Of a DNA stretch of 22,373 nucleotides, positions 4,242-15,240 are shown piece after piece. Position 1 is the stretch's first letter, and each line of letters begins with the position of its first letter. A program made the position numbers and the translations under genes. The notes below the pieces were generated by a model. The model saw only the letters and a list, made by a program, of their open reading frames with translations, did no database searches and was not told the DNA's origin. The DNA comes from a virus: IMG/VR virus record IMGVR_UViG_3300010296_000104, positions 1 to 22,373 of that record. One strand, 5' to 3'.

Positions 4242-4508
4242 ATGACAAAAGATATGATGATAAAGGCTTTATCCGATTTTATGGCGAAAGAAGGCGTTGA
4301 TACAATGGATTTAGTCACTTATAAAGGTTTCGAGAATAAAGTTCCTGTCAAAGATTATATGCTCAGAAGAGCATTTGGTTCATGGAGCAGAGTTCTTGCA
4401 GTAATGACAAAAAGATACCCTGTCAAGCTAGTAGTAAAAGAAGCACCTAAAAAAGTTGCTCCTAAAAAAGCTACTGTAAAAAAGGAAGTTAAAAATGTCA
4501 AAGACTAA
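4242..4508 (+). CDS. small protein with FGSW motif and lysine-rich tail, 88 aa
   Basis: No firm family assignment. The N-terminal 60 residues are helical and include VPVKDYMLRRAFGSWSRVLA (about residues 34-53). This resembles the short helix-turn-helix repeat with an FGSW core found beside some homing endonucleases. The C-terminus (residues 64-88) is a lysine/alanine/proline tail (EAPKKVAPKKATVKKE) like that of histone H1-type or nucleoid proteins. Together these suggest DNA binding, but that is inference. CGAGGA at 4227-4232 precedes ATG 4242. The end overlaps the protease-capsid gene by 14 nt, so the two are probably coupled. Its position between portal and protease could also suit a small head-assembly protein. 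Confidence 0.75.
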   Translation: MTKDMMIKALSDFMAKEGVDTMDLVTYKGFENKVPVKDYMLRRAFGSWSRVLAVMTKRYPVKLVVKEAPKKVAPKKATVKKEVKNVKD

Positions 4509-6552
4509 AATATTTCACTGGACTAATACTTTTAAATCGTTAGGCGAAGACGACGATGGCGGAGTTAATATTAAAGGATCTGCAAGTACAAATGCACTAG
4601 ACAGAGCTGGAGATATAATAGAAGCAGAAGCATGGACAAAAGGAGGACTAGAGAACTTTAAACAGAATCCTATCCTACTTTTTAACCATGACTATAACAG
4701 ACCTATCGGTAAAGCTACATCCTTAGAAGTCACTGACAAAGGATTAGAAATTACTGGTAGAATCTCAAAAGCTGCTGGCGAGATAAAAGAATTAGTTAAA
4801 GATGGTGTCCTTGGAGCGTTTTCCGTTGGTTTCAAGGTCAAGGATGCTGATTATATGACAGAAACCGATGGATACAAAATTAAGGACGCAGAATTATTCG
4901 AAGTATCAGTAGTATCAATACCTTGCAATCAGGGTGCAACCTTTGGATTGTCAAAATCATTTGATAGTATAGACGAATATAATGAGTTCAAAAAGCAATT
5001 TTTAAAGGCTAACTCGGTCGAATCAGCAGACGCTGTTAAGATTGAGCAGCCAAGAGAGGAGAAATCCTCAACAAAGGAGACTGATATGTCAGAAGAGAAA
5101 AAATCTCCTGAAGTAGCTTTCGACTTAGAATCATTTGCAAAACAAGTAGCAGAAAAAACTGCAACTTCAATTGCTATGAAACAAGCCGAGCAAAAAGCAG
5201 CTGAGCAAAAAGCACAACAAGAAGCCGCTGAAAAGCAGCATGAAGTTGAAGCTGAACAAAAGGCTGTTCAAGAAGCAAAACAGGAAGAGCAAAAAACTAT
5301 CATCGAAGCTGGCCTTTCAGGAGCTGAAAGACTTATGTCTGATGTTGAAAAGAGAGTTAACGAAAAACAAGAAGATCTTGAAAAAGTAGTTAGAGAACTT
5401 GAAAAAACATTAGCTGAGAAATCTGAAGAAATCATGAGTATTCGTGAATCAAAAAGAGTATTCTCAGACAGACAAGGTCAAGGCGACTGGAAAAAAGCTT
5501 TCGAGGCAGATATTTTAGATGCTAAGTTTGCTGGTCTTGCCACAGGCAAAGGCTGGGACAACAAATATGCTAAAGATGTAATGGAGAAAGTCAACGCACA
5601 TTCAGGTGTTGGTGTATCTTCAGCAGATTTTGAGCAGATTGTATCTACAAACATCGAAAGAGATATTCAAAACGAATTGGTATTAGCACCTCTATTTAGA
5701 GAGATTCCAATGACTGCAGCGAATATGATCATTCCAATCCTACCAGATGCAGGTTACGCAGAGTTTACCTCTAGCCAAACTGCAGCAGGTTCATCACCAC
5801 ACGGTAACTTAGCCGAAAGAGGTGACACATATGGTTCTCCATATGGTGGTAGTGATTTGACTGAAAGAACTCTTTCAACCAAAAAACTTATTTCACAATC
5901 ATACTTAGGTAATGAAACTGAAGAAGATGCAATTCTACCAATTCTTCCTTTAATTAGAGAGCAAATGGTAAGATCACACGCAAGAGCAATCGAGAATGCT
6001 ATTCTAGCAGGTGACGATGCTGACGGTGCTTTCGGTACTGGCGGTGCATCTTTCGAAGGTCTATTACACCTTGCAAGAAATGATTCAGACTACACACAGC
6101 CATCAGGGACTTTCGCGTCAACTGATTCTGTAACTGCAGCTGACCTTCTTGCTCTAAGAAAGAATATGGGTAAATATGGTGTCAACCCTTCAGACGTAGT
6201 TTATGTCGTATCACAAGATGTGTACTATAACCTACTAGAAGATGCTGAGTTCCAAGACGCTAACCTAGTTGGTGACATGGCTACTAAGCTAAGTGGTGAA
6301 ATCGGACAAGTATTCGGATCAAGAGTACTATTATGTGACGAGTTCGCAACTAAAGCCGCTGCTAAGTTTAACGCTATTGCAGTATACCCAAGAAACTATG
6401 TAATGCCAAGATTAAGAGGTGTTACAATTGAGTCAGACTACGAAGTAGCTAACCAAAGAAGAGTCCTTGTGGCTTCACAAAGACTTGGTTTCATCGATTT
6501 AATTGATGGCGCAACTTCAAAATGGGCACAAATGTATAAAGCTTCTGCTTAA
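4495..6552 (+). CDS. prohead protease - scaffold - major capsid fusion protein
   Basis: One 685-residue frame carries three head-assembly activities. Residues about 1-170 are an HK97-type prohead protease (family U35) with His65 (LLFNHDYNRPIG), Ser110 (LGAFSVGF) and the acidic ELFEVSVVSIP strand at 133-143. Residues about 198-320 are Glu/Lys/Gln/Ala-rich coiled coil acting as scaffold or delta domain. Residues about 330-685 are an HK97-fold major capsid protein (VSSADFEQIVSTNIERDI near the start, KWAQMYKASA at the end). AAAGGAA at 4481-4487 serves ATG 4495. A strong internal ribosome binding site and in-frame ATG 5086 probably give a separate scaffold-capsid product. The protease should remove the scaffold after assembly. 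Natural protease-capsid fusions are known. Confidence 0.95.
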   Translation: MSKTKIFHWTNTFKSLGEDDDGGVNIKGSASTNALDRAGDIIEAEAWTKGGLENFKQNPILLFNHDYNRPIGKATSLEVTDKGLEITGRISKAAGEIKELVKDGVLGAFSVGFKVKDADYMTETDGYKIKDAELFEVSVVSIPCNQGATFGLSKSFDSIDEYNEFKKQFLKANSVESADAVKIEQPREEKSSTKETDMSEEKKSPEVAFDLESFAKQVAEKTATSIAMKQAEQKAAEQKAQQEAAEKQHEVEAEQKAVQEAKQEEQKTIIEAGLSGAERLMSDVEKRVNEKQEDLEKVVRELEKTLAEKSEEIMSIRESKRVFSDRQGQGDWKKAFEADILDAKFAGLATGKGWDNKYAKDVMEKVNAHSGVGVSSADFEQIVSTNIERDIQNELVLAPLFREIPMTAANMIIPILPDAGYAEFTSSQTAAGSSPHGNLAERGDTYGSPYGGSDLTERTLSTKKLISQSYLGNETEEDAILPILPLIREQMVRSHARAIENAILAGDDADGAFGTGGASFEGLLHLARNDSDYTQPSGTFASTDSVTAADLLALRKNMGKYGVNPSDVVYVVSQDVYYNLLEDAEFQDANLVGDMATKLSGEIGQVFGSRVLLCDEFATKAAAKFNAIAVYPRNYVMPRLRGVTIESDYEVANQRRVLVASQRLGFIDLIDGATSKWAQMYKASA
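5056..5069 (+). other. small hairpin with GAAA tetraloop ahead of the internal start
   Basis: GAGGA (5056-5060) and TCCTC (5065-5069) pair around GAAA, a stable GNRA-type tetraloop. The left arm contains an AGAGGAG-like decoy ribosome binding site with no suitable start codon after it. The hairpin would hide this decoy while leaving the real AAAGGAG (5073-5079) exposed. The stem is short (5 bp), so its importance is uncertain. Confidence 0.3.
5073..5088 (+). promoter_or_regulatory. internal ribosome binding site and in-frame start codon
   Basis: AAAGGAG (5073-5079), six bases, then ATG 5086-5088. The ATG is codon 198 of the fusion frame (591 bases from ATG 4495). It falls exactly at the protease/scaffold boundary, where the residue sequence changes to MSEEKKSPEVAFDLE. 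This is among the strongest Shine-Dalgarno matches in the window. Confidence 0.75.
5086..6552 (+). CDS. nested scaffold-major capsid protein (internal start), 488 aa
   Basis: This is the same frame as the protease fusion, read from the internal ATG 5086. The product would begin MSEEKKSPEVAFDLE and contain only the coiled-coil scaffold region (about 120 residues) and the HK97-fold capsid protein. Its length and layout resemble the unprocessed HK97 capsid precursor (delta domain plus shell protein). Such a nested product would explain how the phage makes many capsid subunits but only few proteases from one gene. Lambda uses the same device for its protease and scaffold proteins. The case rests on the ribosome binding site and the domain boundary. 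It has not been shown experimentally. Confidence 0.65.
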   Translation: MSEEKKSPEVAFDLESFAKQVAEKTATSIAMKQAEQKAAEQKAQQEAAEKQHEVEAEQKAVQEAKQEEQKTIIEAGLSGAERLMSDVEKRVNEKQEDLEKVVRELEKTLAEKSEEIMSIRESKRVFSDRQGQGDWKKAFEADILDAKFAGLATGKGWDNKYAKDVMEKVNAHSGVGVSSADFEQIVSTNIERDIQNELVLAPLFREIPMTAANMIIPILPDAGYAEFTSSQTAAGSSPHGNLAERGDTYGSPYGGSDLTERTLSTKKLISQSYLGNETEEDAILPILPLIREQMVRSHARAIENAILAGDDADGAFGTGGASFEGLLHLARNDSDYTQPSGTFASTDSVTAADLLALRKNMGKYGVNPSDVVYVVSQDVYYNLLEDAEFQDANLVGDMATKLSGEIGQVFGSRVLLCDEFATKAAAKFNAIAVYPRNYVMPRLRGVTIESDYEVANQRRVLVASQRLGFIDLIDGATSKWAQMYKASA

Positions 6553-6566
6553 TACTACGATGGTTC

Positions 6567-6595
6567 TGGTGGGTTTCCTTAAACCCACCACTTTT
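6567..6595 (+). terminator. Rho-independent terminator after the capsid gene
   Basis: TGGTGGGTTT (6567-6576), loop CCTT, AAACCCACCA (6581-6590): a perfect 10-bp stem followed by CTTTT. The short T-run suggests a partial terminator, allowing some read-through into the connector gene that starts ten bases after the stem. Confidence 0.85.
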
Positions 6596-9158: not shown

Positions 9159-10403
9159 ATGGCATTTTTCTTTAGTAGAGATACCAAAGTGTTCATGTCC
9201 TTTGCTTATGATGGAACAACAACAAATACAGCCCTCTTTGAGATACCTGTACTAGACGGTTTTTCATTTAACCAAGGAACAAACACTTCTGAAGTTACTC
9301 TAAGTGAGGCAGCCAACTCCACTGGCTACAGTAAAAGAGGTAGAGCAATGTTTACTGACTCTTTTGCACCAGCGGAATGGAGTTTTACTACTTATATGAG
9401 ACCTACGGTGTCTGCTTCTGGTAATGCGGGAGCATCTAACCAGCACGCAGGTAACGCTCAAAAGTTTGCAGTAGAAGGCCCATTATGGGCAGCTATGTCT
9501 GCAAATACTTATGACAGGTCTATAGGAAGTAGTGGAACAGGCGATTTTGCAAATAATGCGGCAACTTATGAGCCGAATCATTTTGACTTTGCAAACTCAA
9601 ACCAAGTCACACTAGGAGTCTTTGACCTATACTTTGTATTAGGTGCTTCAAAAGATACAAATACAGAAGTGTATGCAACAGGAACAGAAGGAGTTACAGT
9701 TTATAAAGTAGCTAACTGTTCAGTTGGATCAGCTTCCGTAGACTTTGATATTGAAGGACTAGCACAAATTGCTTGGTCTGGAAATGGACAAACAGTTGAA
9801 GAAGTTGCCCAAATTAATACAGCTTCAAGTGGAACAACAGCCTTAGGCTTAGTTAACGAAGGTATTAGTTCAACAAGCAACTTTATTAGACAAAAACTAA
9901 CAGACTTAGCAATTAGCTTTGATGTATCAGCATCAACAGGTACATTAGGCGCATTGAACGTTGATGGTAGTGATGTTACTTATGATGTAACATTAACAGG
10001 TGGTAATATTACAATCGAAAATAATCTTACATACTTAACACCAGAAACACTAGGTACAGTTAACTTACCATTAGGACATGTAATGGGAACAAGAAGTGTC
10101 TCAGGTAACTTTACTTGTTACTTAAATGACACAGCAAACGGGTCTTTAGACTTGTTTGAAAGACTACAAGAGTCTAGAGGTGTGATTACAAACGCATTTG
10201 ATTTAACATTCAGCATTGGAGGCTCAGGTAATACTCCAAGATGTAATGTTCAAGTAGCTAAAGCACACTTAGAATTACCAACACATAGCTTTGAGGATGT
10301 AGTATCCGTAGATGTAGCCTTCCATGGCTTATCAACAGACTTATCTTCAGGAACTGCGGCTAACGCAACGAATGAAGTATCGGTCACATACGAAGCTAGT
10401 TAA
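9159..10403 (+). CDS. major tail protein (tail tube)
   Basis: This 414-residue protein forms the stacked rings of the tail tube. It is Ser/Thr/Asn/Gly-rich and mostly beta. It begins FFFSRDTKVFMSFAYDG and later shows repeated beta-sandwich strands (FDLYFVLG, SVDFDIEGLAQIAWSG, LTDLAISFDVSA, NVQVAKAHLELPTHS, VVSVDVAFHGLST). Evidence comes from position (after the tail terminator, before the G/G-T chaperones), the strong ribosome binding site TAGGAGA (9147-9153), and the terminator right after it. These mark a highly expressed structural gene. It is longer than the lambda tube protein, so an extra surface (Ig-like or decorating) domain is likely. Confidence 0.87.
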   Translation: MAFFFSRDTKVFMSFAYDGTTTNTALFEIPVLDGFSFNQGTNTSEVTLSEAANSTGYSKRGRAMFTDSFAPAEWSFTTYMRPTVSASGNAGASNQHAGNAQKFAVEGPLWAAMSANTYDRSIGSSGTGDFANNAATYEPNHFDFANSNQVTLGVFDLYFVLGASKDTNTEVYATGTEGVTVYKVANCSVGSASVDFDIEGLAQIAWSGNGQTVEEVAQINTASSGTTALGLVNEGISSTSNFIRQKLTDLAISFDVSASTGTLGALNVDGSDVTYDVTLTGGNITIENNLTYLTPETLGTVNLPLGHVMGTRSVSGNFTCYLNDTANGSLDLFERLQESRGVITNAFDLTFSIGGSGNTPRCNVQVAKAHLELPTHSFEDVVSVDVAFHGLSTDLSSGTAANATNEVSVTYEAS

Positions 10404-10453: not shown

Positions 10454-10888
10454 ATGACAGAAGAAGTAAAAAAACAACCAGTATCACTGAAGAGTTTATT
10501 AACTCCAAGCAAGACAGTATCAATCGACTTTCCAGGATTTGAAGGATTCACTGTTGATTTGACTTACCTAAGTCGAGAAGAGTTACTAAAACTCAGAAGC
10601 AGATGCTTAAAAAACAAGTTTAACAAGAAGACTAGAGCATTTGAAGAACAACTCGATGAAGAAACATTCTTAACCGAATATTGTAAGGCAATCATCAAAG
10701 GTTGGAAAGGGCTAAAGTATTCTTACTTAGAAGAGCTTCTATTAGTAGATACAAGCGGAGTAGCCAAAGATGAAGAACTTGAGTATTCTCAAGAAAATGC
10801 TGAAACTCTAATGAGAAATGCAGCAGACTTCGATCAATGGGTTACTGATACTGTAGGAGATCTGGATAATTTTACTCAGCGCAAGTAG
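10454..10888 (+). CDS. G: tail assembly chaperone, G protein
   Basis: The 144-residue protein is the short form of the tail assembly chaperone pair, which coats the tape measure during tail assembly and is absent from finished particles. Length is very close to lambda gpG. It has an N-terminal beta part (VSIDFPGFEGFTVDLTYLS) and a helical, acidic C-terminus (FDQWVTDTVGDLDNF). Position between the major tail protein and the tape measure is diagnostic. AGGAA (10445-10449) is four bases from ATG 10454. A frameshift close to the end produces the longer G-T form. Confidence 0.85.
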   Translation: MTEEVKKQPVSLKSLLTPSKTVSIDFPGFEGFTVDLTYLSREELLKLRSRCLKNKFNKKTRAFEEQLDEETFLTEYCKAIIKGWKGLKYSYLEELLLVDTSGVAKDEELEYSQENAETLMRNAADFDQWVTDTVGDLDNFTQRK

Positions 10889-11265
10889 AACAAGTACTTG
10901 CGCTCATAAAAAGACATTTTCAAGATACAGGCATAGACCTTAATAAGTATCTTGCAATATGTGAGCAACTGAATCAAGAACCTGATCCAGATAAAATGCC
11001 TCTTACTATGGATAGATATCCAACAGAAGTACAAGAGGCATTTTTTGTACATAACTTACTTTCGGATCGTTGGGATGGTATGAGTGGCTACTACATGGGT
11101 AAAGATTTATCCGCTCTCGGTACTATTTTAGATATCTGGGAGATAGAAGACAAAAGAACTTGTATCTATTTTTTAAAGCACATAGAGCATGCTCATCAAG
11201 AAATGATGAACGCAAAAGTAAAGGCTCGACAAGACGCTGAAAAGCGTAAAGCGAAAGTAAAGTAA
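10454..11265 (+). CDS. tail assembly chaperone G-T, made by -1 frameshift (10454-10873, then 10873-11265)
   Basis: The T region (10870-11265) is open in the -1 frame relative to G. It has no ATG, GTG or TTG before ATG 10996, which itself lacks a ribosome binding site, so it should be expressed by frameshifting. If slippage occurs at TTT (10871-10873), the product has 140 residues of G and 130 of T, 270 in all, close to lambda gpG-T. The joined reading passes smoothly from GDLDNF into YSAQVEQVLALIKRHFQ. The T part ends in a charged helix (HAHQEMMNAKVKARQDAEKRKAKVK) and should bind the tape measure. The stop touches the tape measure ATG. Confidence 0.85.
10870..10904 (+). promoter_or_regulatory. 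programmed -1 frameshift site with stem-loop
   Basis: The run TTTT (10870-10873) lets the Phe tRNA on TTT re-pair perfectly one base back. The -1 frame has a stop at 10867-10869, and the G frame stops at 10886-10888, so the shift must fall between these. Four bases after TTTT begins a perfect 10-bp stem, AGCGCAAGTA (10878-10887) with TACTTGCGCT (10895-10904), loop GAACAAG. The site is not a canonical X-XXY-YYZ heptamer. Confidence 0.75.
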
Positions 11266-14200
11266 ATGGCAAAAAAGATTAAAGGCGCAACTATTACCAT
11301 CGAAGTTACTGATGGGGAAAGTCTTAAAAGTATAGCGCGAAAAGCAAAAGAAGCACAGAAAGGATTAGACGGTGCAGGTAAATCTGCGGGCGATGTTCGT
11401 AGAAATATGCAGGCTATGTCTGGTCGTGTTGAATCTGGCTCAAAAGCTTTTGCGCGTATGCAACAAGGAACGGGTGGACTTGTCCAATCTTATGCTGTTC
11501 TAGCATCCACCCTTTTCGCACTTGGAGCTGCATTTAGAGTTATGCAAAACGCTGCAGACTTTAAAGCATTACAACAATCACAAGCTGCGTTTGCTAACCA
11601 AACTGGTGTCAATATGAATATGATTGCAAAGCAGTTACAGGTAGCAACAGGTGCTCAGATTGACTTACAAAAAGCAGGTGCTTCAACTGCAATTATGGTT
11701 GCAAAAGGTTTTACTACTGATCAAATTACTGCAGTAGCAGAAGCTTCTAAAAATGCCGCTATCGCACTTGGTAGAAACTTTGAGGACACCTTCAATCGTA
11801 TCGTTCAAGGTACAACAAAAGCAGAACCAGAACTCTTAGATGAACTTGGTATTACACTAAGGCTAGAGACTGCTGCTCGTAAGTATGGTGCTCAAATAGG
11901 TAAAAACTATCAAGATTTAACTACTTATGAAAAATCACAAGCTGTTTTAAATGAAACATTAAGACAAGCCTCGGATAACTTTGATGCAATCGCAGGCAAA
12001 GTTCCGATTAATCAATTAAACCAATTAGCAACTACTTTCTCTGACTTGATGCAAGGTATTCTAAAGTTTATAAGTCCCTTAGCCAATTTCTTTGCAAATG
12101 TATTAAATGAAAATATTGTAGCAGCAGTAGCTGTTATTGGTTTATTCGCAAAATCTATTGCTGGACAAATATTTCCTTCCATTGATGGTATAGGAAACCG
12201 ATTTACAGCTGCAGCAAATCAATCCTCTCAAGCTGTTGAGCGTATGAAGGGACAAGTAGATTCTTTGAAAGCAAGAACTGACGCATTATCCGCTTCTGCT
12301 AGTGGAGACGGTCTGGGAATTGCAGGTAAAGCAGATTTGCGGGGTCAAGCAAAATCCATGCGTAGACAAGTTGGAACAAAGTCTCCTGTCTTAAAAAGAG
12401 CAATGCAAGGAACCATGACTGGTACAGATGAAGCGAACTTAAAGAAAGCTTTAAAGTCAGCAGAAATGCAGTATCAAAAACATGGACAAATAGTAAGTGG
12501 TATATTTAAAGGTGGTAGTATCAAAAACGTTAGAGCTATGGAACTTTCTTTTGCAAAAATGAAAGCAGGCAGTGCTACTACTTTCCAAAAACTAGGAATG
12601 CACATGGAAATCTTTGTAGGTAAAGCAAAAATGAAAACTTTAGAATTACAAGGATTTTTCCAAGCAATGTTTGCAGGTATATCTAGAGCAGGAGCCGCCA
12701 CTATGACTTTCTTAGGTAAAGTAATGGGTGCAGCAGGTGTTCTCGGTATAGTTATAATGGTAGTTAGCTCTATTGTACAAATTATAAAAAACTTTGATTC
12801 TGTTATTTTAGGATTTAGAAAAGCTATGGCAGGATTCAAAAATATGGCTGCAGGTGTTTTGGAGTTTTTTGGATTTGCAGACAAAGCCCATAAAATGAGA
12901 CTAAGTGCAATAGAGGATGAAGTATCAGCTCAGAAAAAATATGAAGCAGCAACAAAAGATAAAAAAGCTTTTGAAGCTAGAAAGAAAGTTATGGAGGAAA
13001 TGTATGATGCTGGTTTGCAGTTTTATGAAACCTTAGAACAATTTGAACTTGACCCTAAGTTTAGAAATACAACAAAAGAAGTCGAGATTTTTGCAAAACA
13101 AGTAGGAACTTCTGGTTTAGTAGGTCAGCTAAGACTACTTCAAAAACAACAAGATGTAAATACTGTAGAGTTTCAAAATCTAGAAAGAGTTGTTGCCGAC
13201 AATATAAATCAATTAAATAAGGTAAATCCATTATTTAGAAGGCTTGGCATAAGTTTTAGAACAAATGCTGATGATGTAGATACTCTAATTGTAAGAATGA
13301 ATAGATTAGGAATGGTATCAGCAGAATTAAAAGAAATAACAGAAAGTTTAGTTGATACAAGATCTTCTTTAATTAAACAAGTTGAAGGTTCTTTCTTTGA
13401 AAAAGAATTAGATTCTTTAAATAAAGCTACAGTTGTAATGGAACAATACAATGATGCCGTGTATGATAATACTAAGTTATATGACGATCAAGCAGAATAC
13501 ATAAAAACAATTGCAGGTGGTAATGCAGAAACAGTTCGTGAAGCCCAAAAACTATTACAACTTAGAAGAAATGAGTTACAAGTAATTGCTGATATGCAAA
13601 TTATCACAAAAAGATTAGAAGATAGGGCAAAAATAGAAAGCACTTTATTAGGTATATTCAACACAAAATTAAATGCAAGATTTAAAAAAGAAAATGACCT
13701 AATAGTATTAGCTGCAAAAAGAGCAACACTAGATGAAGAACAAACGTATACACTTGAAAGAATAAAAGAGCAATATGGAGAACATAGTCGAGAAGTTCAA
13801 GGATTAAAACAAGTACAAGAAGACCAACTAGGTATAATGGATGCCCAAATATTAGCATTACAAAGTCAGTTAAGTTTAGTAGGAGAAATAGCGACAACAT
13901 TTACAGAGACATTTGAAAAATTAGCACAACAAAACTTTGTAGATATACTACTAGGAGATAAAAGTAGTTACGAAGGTTTTTCAGCAATAAAAGACGGTAT
14001 TCAAAAACAATTAATGAATATAGGAGTTGAAAGATTTATAGTAAACCCAATGGTTGGTGGTTTTCAAAGAGCGTTTGATGCTCTTAGAGGTAATATTGCA
14101 CAACAATTAGGAATAGTACCAGGTCAAAATGTTCTTGAGATGACAAAAGAAGAACAAGCACAAAATCAACAACAAGCGTTATTTACATCACACGTAAATG

Positions 14201-15240
14201 GAATGGCTTCCGTAATGACTCAGCATGTACAAAACATGGCAGCAGTAATAAGCGGAGAAGGCCCAGCTGCAGTAGTTGCTGAAAGTGTAACTGACCAATC
14301 TACTCAACAAGCAGGACTCGGAATAATTTCTCATTACAAAGACCAACTTGAAGGATACGTAAATCAAATTAATAATACTATTGGAATACTTCAAGGACAA
14401 GGTCAAACTTTTGATGGATTTGGTGCCGCAACAAACTCACCTGCAATACAAGCTTTAGAAAAGGCGAGAACAGACCATTTGGGAAATATTGCAAATCTCG
14501 ATGCTAAAGCAGGAATAATAGGAGGCGGAGGTGTTGCAGGAACAGATTTAGCTTCTCGTATATTAGACTCCGCAAAAGCAGGAAAAGGTTTAGCAGGAGT
14601 ACTAGGAACTAAAAATAATCCAATGTCTGTTAGTATTGTAGATGATAAAACAGCAAAACTAACTGCAAGTGGAGCAGGTGCAGAGGGAAAAATATCTGAC
14701 GCTATTGGTGGAGCTTTGGGTGGAACAGAAGGCACTACAGGAGCAGCAGGTGGTCCATTAGGAGGCATACTAGGAAAGATACCAGGACTAGGTGGTTTAT
14801 TCGGTGGTGGCGGAGGCCTAGCAGGTGGAGGAATATTATCCTCTATTATAGGCATGATACCAGGATTAAATATGATAGCACCATTCTTATCTATTTTTGG
14901 ATTAGCAAAAGGCGGAATCATTGGACTAGCAAAAGGTGGTCTAATGCCAAGATATGCTGATGGTGGAATTGCAACTCAACCAACATATTTAGTTGGAGAA
15001 GGAAAACAAAATGAAGCAGTTGTACCACTACCAGATAATAGAAGTATACCAGTAAACTTAGGTAGAGGCGCGGGGTCTACAAATAACACAAGTATTAATG
15101 TAAATATTGATGGCTCAGGAGCAAGTGCTGATGTAACAGCAGACGGCGGTGCACAACTCGCTGAAGCAATTAACGCTTCTGTAATGGCAACAATTATAAA
15201 AGAACAAGCACCAGGCGGAATACTAAACCCAACAGGATAA
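11266..15240 (+). CDS. tail tape measure protein
   Basis: At 1324 residues this is the largest complete gene; it sets tail length and is ejected with the DNA. It has basic helical N-terminal coils, then SYAVLASTLFALGAAF and KALQQSQAAFANQTG, typical of the tape measure core. Hydrophobic membrane-like segments lie near residues 285-302 and 486-506. Long coiled coils fill about 530-900. A Gly-rich hydrophobic C-terminus (about 1150-1225) leads to the family signature at 1215-1255 (AKGGLMPRYADGGIATQPTY, VGEGKQNEAVVPLP). By the usual rule of about 1.5 angstroms per residue the tail would be near 200 nm. It starts right after the G-T stop and has only weak ribosome binding bases. No lysozyme or peptidase domain is evident. 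Confidence 0.96.
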   Translation: MAKKIKGATITIEVTDGESLKSIARKAKEAQKGLDGAGKSAGDVRRNMQAMSGRVESGSKAFARMQQGTGGLVQSYAVLASTLFALGAAFRVMQNAADFKALQQSQAAFANQTGVNMNMIAKQLQVATGAQIDLQKAGASTAIMVAKGFTTDQITAVAEASKNAAIALGRNFEDTFNRIVQGTTKAEPELLDELGITLRLETAARKYGAQIGKNYQDLTTYEKSQAVLNETLRQASDNFDAIAGKVPINQLNQLATTFSDLMQGILKFISPLANFFANVLNENIVAAVAVIGLFAKSIAGQIFPSIDGIGNRFTAAANQSSQAVERMKGQVDSLKARTDALSASASGDGLGIAGKADLRGQAKSMRRQVGTKSPVLKRAMQGTMTGTDEANLKKALKSAEMQYQKHGQIVSGIFKGGSIKNVRAMELSFAKMKAGSATTFQKLGMHMEIFVGKAKMKTLELQGFFQAMFAGISRAGAATMTFLGKVMGAAGVLGIVIMVVSSIVQIIKNFDSVILGFRKAMAGFKNMAAGVLEFFGFADKAHKMRLSAIEDEVSAQKKYEAATKDKKAFEARKKVMEEMYDAGLQFYETLEQFELDPKFRNTTKEVEIFAKQVGTSGLVGQLRLLQKQQDVNTVEFQNLERVVADNINQLNKVNPLFRRLGISFRTNADDVDTLIVRMNRLGMVSAELKEITESLVDTRSSLIKQVEGSFFEKELDSLNKATVVMEQYNDAVYDNTKLYDDQAEYIKTIAGGNAETVREAQKLLQLRRNELQVIADMQIITKRLEDRAKIESTLLGIFNTKLNARFKKENDLIVLAAKRATLDEEQTYTLERIKEQYGEHSREVQGLKQVQEDQLGIMDAQILALQSQLSLVGEIATTFTETFEKLAQQNFVDILLGDKSSYEGFSAIKDGIQKQLMNIGVERFIVNPMVGGFQRAFDALRGNIAQQLGIVPGQNVLEMTKEEQAQNQQQALFTSHVNGMASVMTQHVQNMAAVISGEGPAAVVAESVTDQSTQQAGLGIISHYKDQLEGYVNQINNTIGILQGQGQTFDGFGAATNSPAIQALEKARTDHLGNIANLDAKAGIIGGGGVAGTDLASRILDSAKAGKGLAGVLGTKNNPMSVSIVDDKTAKLTASGAGAEGKISDAIGGALGGTEGTTGAAGGPLGGILGKIPGLGGLFGGGGGLAGGGILSSIIGMIPGLNMIAPFLSIFGLAKGGIIGLAKGGLMPRYADGGIATQPTYLVGEGKQNEAVVPLPDNRSIPVNLGRGAGSTNNTSINVNIDGSGASADVTADGGAQLAEAINASVMATIIKEQAPGGILNPTG

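Follow-up and report, generated by a model that had tools for sequence, protein, structure and literature searches.

Sequence evidence for a programmed −1 frameshift in the tail assembly chaperone genes of a marine virus family, with a reduced slip site in one clade

A virus record of 22,373 bases, analyzed over its whole length and termed the window, was compared with its relatives. These comparisons indicate that a programmed −1 ribosomal frameshift very probably produces the G-T fusion form of this virus's tail assembly chaperone and that in the window's clade this shift would depend on a U_UU.U tetramer and a hairpin. The frameshift is of a known kind and the novelty is modest, consisting of a large family of marine viruses with a canonical slip heptamer that has undergone a natural one-base degradation in the window's clade. 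The original prediction of a −1 frameshift in a G/G-T pair was strongly supported by an invariant TTY codon, a covarying stem, and selection on T before ATG 10996.

Gene order and the chaperone pair

The window encodes a terminase, a portal protein, an apparent protease-capsid fusion, and a siphovirus tail module. Matches to PHROG families occurred in the order major tail protein, G, T, and tape measure, with the G/T pair (Table 1) flanked by the genes for the major tail protein (9159 to 10403) and the tape measure protein (11266 to 15240). As in lambda-type G/G-T pairs, two overlapping ORFs lie between these genes, and the downstream ORF is in a shifted frame, lacks a start of its own, and is conserved as a fusion. 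T is predicted to be translated only as part of a 270-amino-acid G-T fusion; the T part in such phages is missed by gene callers. G and T had no match in Pfam, searches of the PDB by sequence gave only marginal matches to Muskelin that were regarded as chance, nothing in the window matched Rfam, and no tRNA genes were found in the window. A scan of genome contigs detected only three relatives in MAGs, with mixed assignment. The head maturation protease and major capsid protein are apparently fused in one ORF of 685 amino acids (4495 to 6552), which has PHROG matches to both.

Table 1. Positions of the features of the chaperone pair and its frameshift site in the window
Feature	Coordinates	Strand	Remarks
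Gene G, tail assembly chaperone	10454..10888	+	ORF, 144 aa; TAG stop 10886-10888; PHROG 313 'Tail assembly chaperone', E 3.4e-14
SD-like AGGAG, possible 5' stimulator	10855..10859	+	Upstream of slip site
Slip site T_AAT_TTT	10867..10873	+	Degenerate form of family heptamer A_AAT_TTT
−1 frame TAA	10867..10869	+	Arises from A-to-T change at first heptamer base; relatives with A there have no TAA
Open −1 frame T	10870..11265	+	PHROG 3914 'tail assembly chaperone', E 5.7e-19; stop at 11263-11265
Hairpin stimulator	10878..10904	+	10 bp, −15.1 kcal/mol; arms 10878-10887 and 10895-10904; loop 10888-10894

The slip site in the window

The G-frame codons up to the stop are ...GAT AAT TTT ACT CAG CGC AAG TAG. 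The original prediction had confined slippage to about 20 nt between a −1-frame stop at 10867 and the G stop at 10886, an interval said to hold TTTT without an X_XXY_YYZ heptamer. Both stops were confirmed, as was the absence of such a heptamer from positions 10867 to 10888; the interval is indeed narrow, but the stretch open in both frames is 16 nt (10870 to 10885). The TTTT occupies 10870 to 10873 and has the Z_ZZN pattern, T_TTT, in phase with the zero-frame codon at 10871 to 10873, which is the only G-frame TTT codon in G to have a T before it. This U_UU.U tetramer is presumably the functional core of the slip site. A fusion through it would comprise 140 plus 130 residues, with the junction ...GDLDNF-YSAQ...; the expected length of 270 residues, which we take to be that of lambda G-T, was thus reproduced, but the module matches T5-like chaperones by sequence and not lambda G. 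The predicted perfect 10-bp stem-loop was also found. Its 5' arm is AGCGCAAGTA, its loop GAACAAG, and its 3' arm TACTTGCGCT; it begins 4 nt past TTTT, and the G stop straddles the 5' arm and the loop. An SD-like motif lies 8 to 9 nt from the slip site in 70 of 95 relatives; it may be a 5' stimulator, but its conservation is confounded with the coding of a conserved Val-Gly-Asp (Gly codon).

Conservation of the family heptamer and the tRNAs that would slip

Protein-guided scans of IMG/VR recovered 54 loci with T as the query and 80 with G, and a profile of diverse T proteins detected more than 580 relatives, 80 of which were fetched. T was in the −1 frame in all 148 distinct site-bearing relatives scored. 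Nearly all relatives read GAA AAT TTT AC, containing the canonical heptamer A_AAU_UUU. The 106 distinct sites of 51 nt had A as the first base of the heptamer in 99 cases (giving A_AAT_TTY), T in 4, and G in 3, followed by AATTTT in 104 and by AATTTC in 2. Conservation of TTTT in related phages had been proposed as a check on the prediction, and AAT-TTY was invariant at the slip site among the relatives (Asn AAT in 80 of 80; Phe TTT in 76 and TTC in 4). Elsewhere in G, conserved Asn and Phe positions use both of their codons, TTT accounting for 34 to 63 of 79 to 80 Phe codons (e.g., 34 TTT and 46 TTC).

A pattern scan for variants without the A detected a T at the first base in 16 other contigs, all belonging to the same clade as the window (identity in gene G, 91.7% or more), and a G in 6 contigs from three lineages; Phe TTC was present at the site in four contigs. 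A sequencing or assembly error as the origin of the T was ruled out, as 16 other contigs share it. A tree constructed with the site excluded requires five or more changes of the first base. The clade of 13 rows to which the window belongs contains T, G, and A (the last in L004 and L007), and A is probably the ancestral base because the surrounding groups hold it. A distant relative (L054, 2983 to 3010; 47% in G) carries A_AAA_AAC immediately ahead of the G stop, another canonical heptamer for the same −1 fusion.

In the proposed mechanism, most ribosomes would stop at 10886, yielding gpG (144 amino acids), while a minority would arrive at AAU-UUU while the hairpin occupies the mRNA entrance. 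The tRNA-Phe would then slip from UUU at 10871 to 10873 to UUU at 10870 to 10872, and reading would go on across the junction to 11265. In most of the family, tRNA-Asn could also slip on A_AAU_UUU (AAU to AAA), together with the move from UUU to UUU. In the window's clade, with U as the first base, only tRNA-Phe would re-pair and the U_UU.U tetramer would be driven by the hairpin. The frames, the conserved site, the covarying hairpin, and the continuing selection on T come directly from sequence and comparison, whereas the slippage itself, its frequency, which tRNA slips, and when are inferred. In the window, tRNA-Asn moving from AAU to UAA would pair at the middle base only, leaving tRNA-Phe alone with cognate re-pairing. 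Re-pairing of tRNA-Phe on its own is accordingly the most plausible mode for this clade. The proposal of reliance largely on tRNA-Phe is thus plausible for the clade, but the site is not a stand-alone oddity, being a one-base derivative of the predominant A_AAU_UUU.

It is less likely, though worth weighing, that tandem slippage persists in the clade, with tRNA-Asn and tRNA-Phe shifting together as on a canonical heptamer. Nearly the whole family carries the canonical A_AAU_UUU, and other systems have heptamers whose first triplet is imperfect (PMC5009743), but here only the middle codon base would stay paired and, since the first base is G in three other lineages, re-pairing at that position seems dispensable. 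We consequently favor single tRNA-Phe slippage and regard a tandem shift as unlikely.

Covariation and strength of the hairpin

The window hairpin gave a fold z-score of −3.2, with 2 of 200 shuffled sequences folding as well, and the window contained 3 perfect hairpins of at least 10 bp (loops of 3 to 12) versus 0.33 expected by shuffling. The other two, at 1125 and 6567, have loops of 7 and 4, respectively; the one at 6567 comes after the capsid gene and may be a terminator. Compensatory changes in the stem, the other comparative check proposed, were observed. Relative to shuffled sequences, contrasts that are inflated by kinship among the sequences, there were 33 double-changed cells versus 12.9 in the 38 sequences with the window's geometry, and helices of at least 7 bp were present at 88% of the 106 sites versus 8.6% of shuffles. 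In the same 38 sequences, 91.6% of pair cells were paired versus 20 to 38% when slid. A second geometry was found in 12 outer relatives, in which the unchanged 5' arm CAAGTA pairs with a more distant 3' arm and likewise covaries. That the hairpin signal is an artifact is made less likely by the slid controls and by the change in position of the partner arm. In L089, L100, L102, L111, and L116, the 5' arm GTCAAGTAG can pair with either a near or a far 3' arm about 30 nt past the slip site, an arrangement intermediate between the two hairpin geometries.

Two features of the hairpin count against this reading. The conservation of its invariant core CAAGTA (10882 to 10887), which begins 8 nt past the Phe codon, can partly be explained by coding (Gln-Val in the T frame). 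With its base just 4 nt past the Phe codon, the 10-bp hairpin would also melt in part when a ribosome is positioned there. The stems of all 15 rows with a base other than A at the first position were −12.1 kcal/mol or lower, compared with a median of −10.4 for those with A, a threshold picked afterwards; the tree gives only 4 independent pairs, 2 to 3 of which as a rule agreed and none of which opposed, with p not below 0.25. These values give only a hint that a stronger stem compensates for loss of the first heptamer base.

Selection on T

Upstream of ATG 10996, T shows purifying selection, with a pN/pS of 0.29 between the hairpin arm and this ATG among 80 relatives. This value opposes an independent start of T at 10996, the outcome that the original prediction had named as contradicting it. 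T would then be a separate gene expressed by reinitiation or leaky coupling, with no frameshift. In its favor, 77 of 80 relatives retain Met at the ATG, and in annotations of T5-like phages the T part is often given an ORF of its own, downstream of G. We nevertheless consider such a start highly improbable and rejected it on account of the upstream coding constraint and the lack of an evident Shine-Dalgarno motif. The 43 codons from the slip site to the ATG are under purifying selection (pN/pS, 0.29 to 0.38), a conserved CEQxxxEPDP motif upstream of the ATG would be removed by starting there, and no obvious Shine-Dalgarno motif is present within 30 nt upstream of 10996. A separate start also leaves the invariant AAT-TTY and the covarying hairpin unexplained.

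The degraded heptamer might alternatively signify that the clade with T at the first base has lost efficient frameshifting and that T is decaying. This reading is equally hard to sustain, as T is intact and under purifying selection between members of this clade (pN/pS, 0.08 to 0.24) and all such sites seen have a perfect 10-bp hairpin, one contig ending within it. Since T is still selected in these lineages, the reduced site is presumably still functional. Transcriptional slippage on the T run, producing mRNAs with an altered base count, can be set aside as extremely improbable: a run exists at the site, but it has four T's only and is broken to TTTC in one group, longer runs are usually required for transcriptional slippage, and an RNA hairpin 4 to 8 nt downstream suits ribosomal rather than transcriptional slippage.

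Comparison with known frameshift systems

All Z_ZZN tetramers were measured in Escherichia coli by Sharma et al. in 2014 (PMC4066793). In that study, U_UU.C and U_UU.U ranked just below A_AAG, the six best tetramers gave 0.26 to 5.6% frameshifting with the IS3 pseudoknot, a strong stimulator being required, and the rule for stimulation was a downstream hairpin 4 to 10 nt away of 7.6 kcal/mol or more. Under these rules, which are those of E. coli and are assumed for this phage, the window hairpin has suitable spacing and strength, with its outer pair 4 nt and its first G-C pair 5 nt past the motif and −15.1 kcal/mol; the four TTC relatives would fit the same rule as U_UU.C. Description of the slippage as an uncommon type was fair with respect to frequency, but no new mechanism is involved, U_UU.U being a recognized Z_ZZN tetramer of the sort found naturally in IS elements (PMC4066793). 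The site resembles those of IS elements and E. coli reporters in the probable cognate re-pairing of a single tRNA on U_UU.U or U_UU.C and in a hairpin 4 to 10 nt downstream; it differs in being a naturally degraded heptamer inside a phage family otherwise keeping the heptamer. The relatives form a natural mutational series on one frameshift site in the same proteins, with A, T, or G as the first base, TTT or TTC for Phe, and hairpins of about −3 to −18 kcal/mol, and this series could show how much heptamer erosion is tolerated before RNA structure has to make up for it.

Levin in 1993 and Xu in 2004 reportedly described programmed −1 frameshifting of the lambda G/G-T type in the tail assembly chaperones of phages (reviewed in PMC5009743). 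The slip sequence of lambda is GGGAAAG, in contrast to A_AAU_UUU with a hairpin in the marine family and only U_UU.U in the window's clade, and G and T of the marine family match T5-like chaperones by sequence, unlike lambda G. The systems share a short chaperone accompanied by a low-level −1 fusion (here predicted), a pair placed between the major tail protein and the tape measure, and a slip close ahead of the G stop; the function in tail assembly would be the one known from lambda. A tetramer without heptamer pairing should be weak, which counts against our reading, but the lambda fusion is needed in low amounts only (about 30:1; reviewed in PMC5009743), so a weak site can suffice.

Among sequenced phages, G matched T5-like phages (Demerecviridae) and Vibrio relatives. 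The T5-like pair (T5, Shivani, Athena, PR1, and others) has homologous G and T and, where G is about to end, a homologous TTT codon for Phe. In contrast to the marine family, T is in the +1 frame and a C comes directly after the Phe codon (TTT_CGN), allowing UUU to move to UUC, in 12 of 12 readable T5-like members and relatives, a set that includes T5 and two environmental sequences and of which several are close kin (L283 [T5], 1586 to 1612; L199, L197, L198, L284-L287, L289, L290, L055, and L282). In Vibrio phage 70E38.1, the G/T overlap is only about 11 nt and contains just the TTT_C site, and in Salmonella phage Shivani the chaperone CDS is annotated as joined. The likely +1 shift is mostly unannotated in T5-like phages, T being called as a separate downstream ORF. 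From frame and codon context, T5-like phages likely use a +1 shift at the homologous Phe codon (UUU_C). Phages are known to use −1, −2, or +1 shifts for chaperone fusion (PMC5009743); the use of one Phe codon in both directions was not seen in that review, and a literature search of incomplete coverage found no description of a T5-like +1 site at this codon. We tentatively suggest, as a possibility somewhat short of probable, that the homologous Phe codon pivots opposite shifts (−1 on A_AAU_UUU or U_UU.U in the marine family and +1 on UUU_C in T5-like phages) and that lineages losing the heptamer keep or gain a stronger hairpin. If so, lineages without the first base of the heptamer would represent a natural trade of tRNA re-pairing against RNA structure, and the comparison with T5 suggests that the direction of a shift can flip at a fixed codon.
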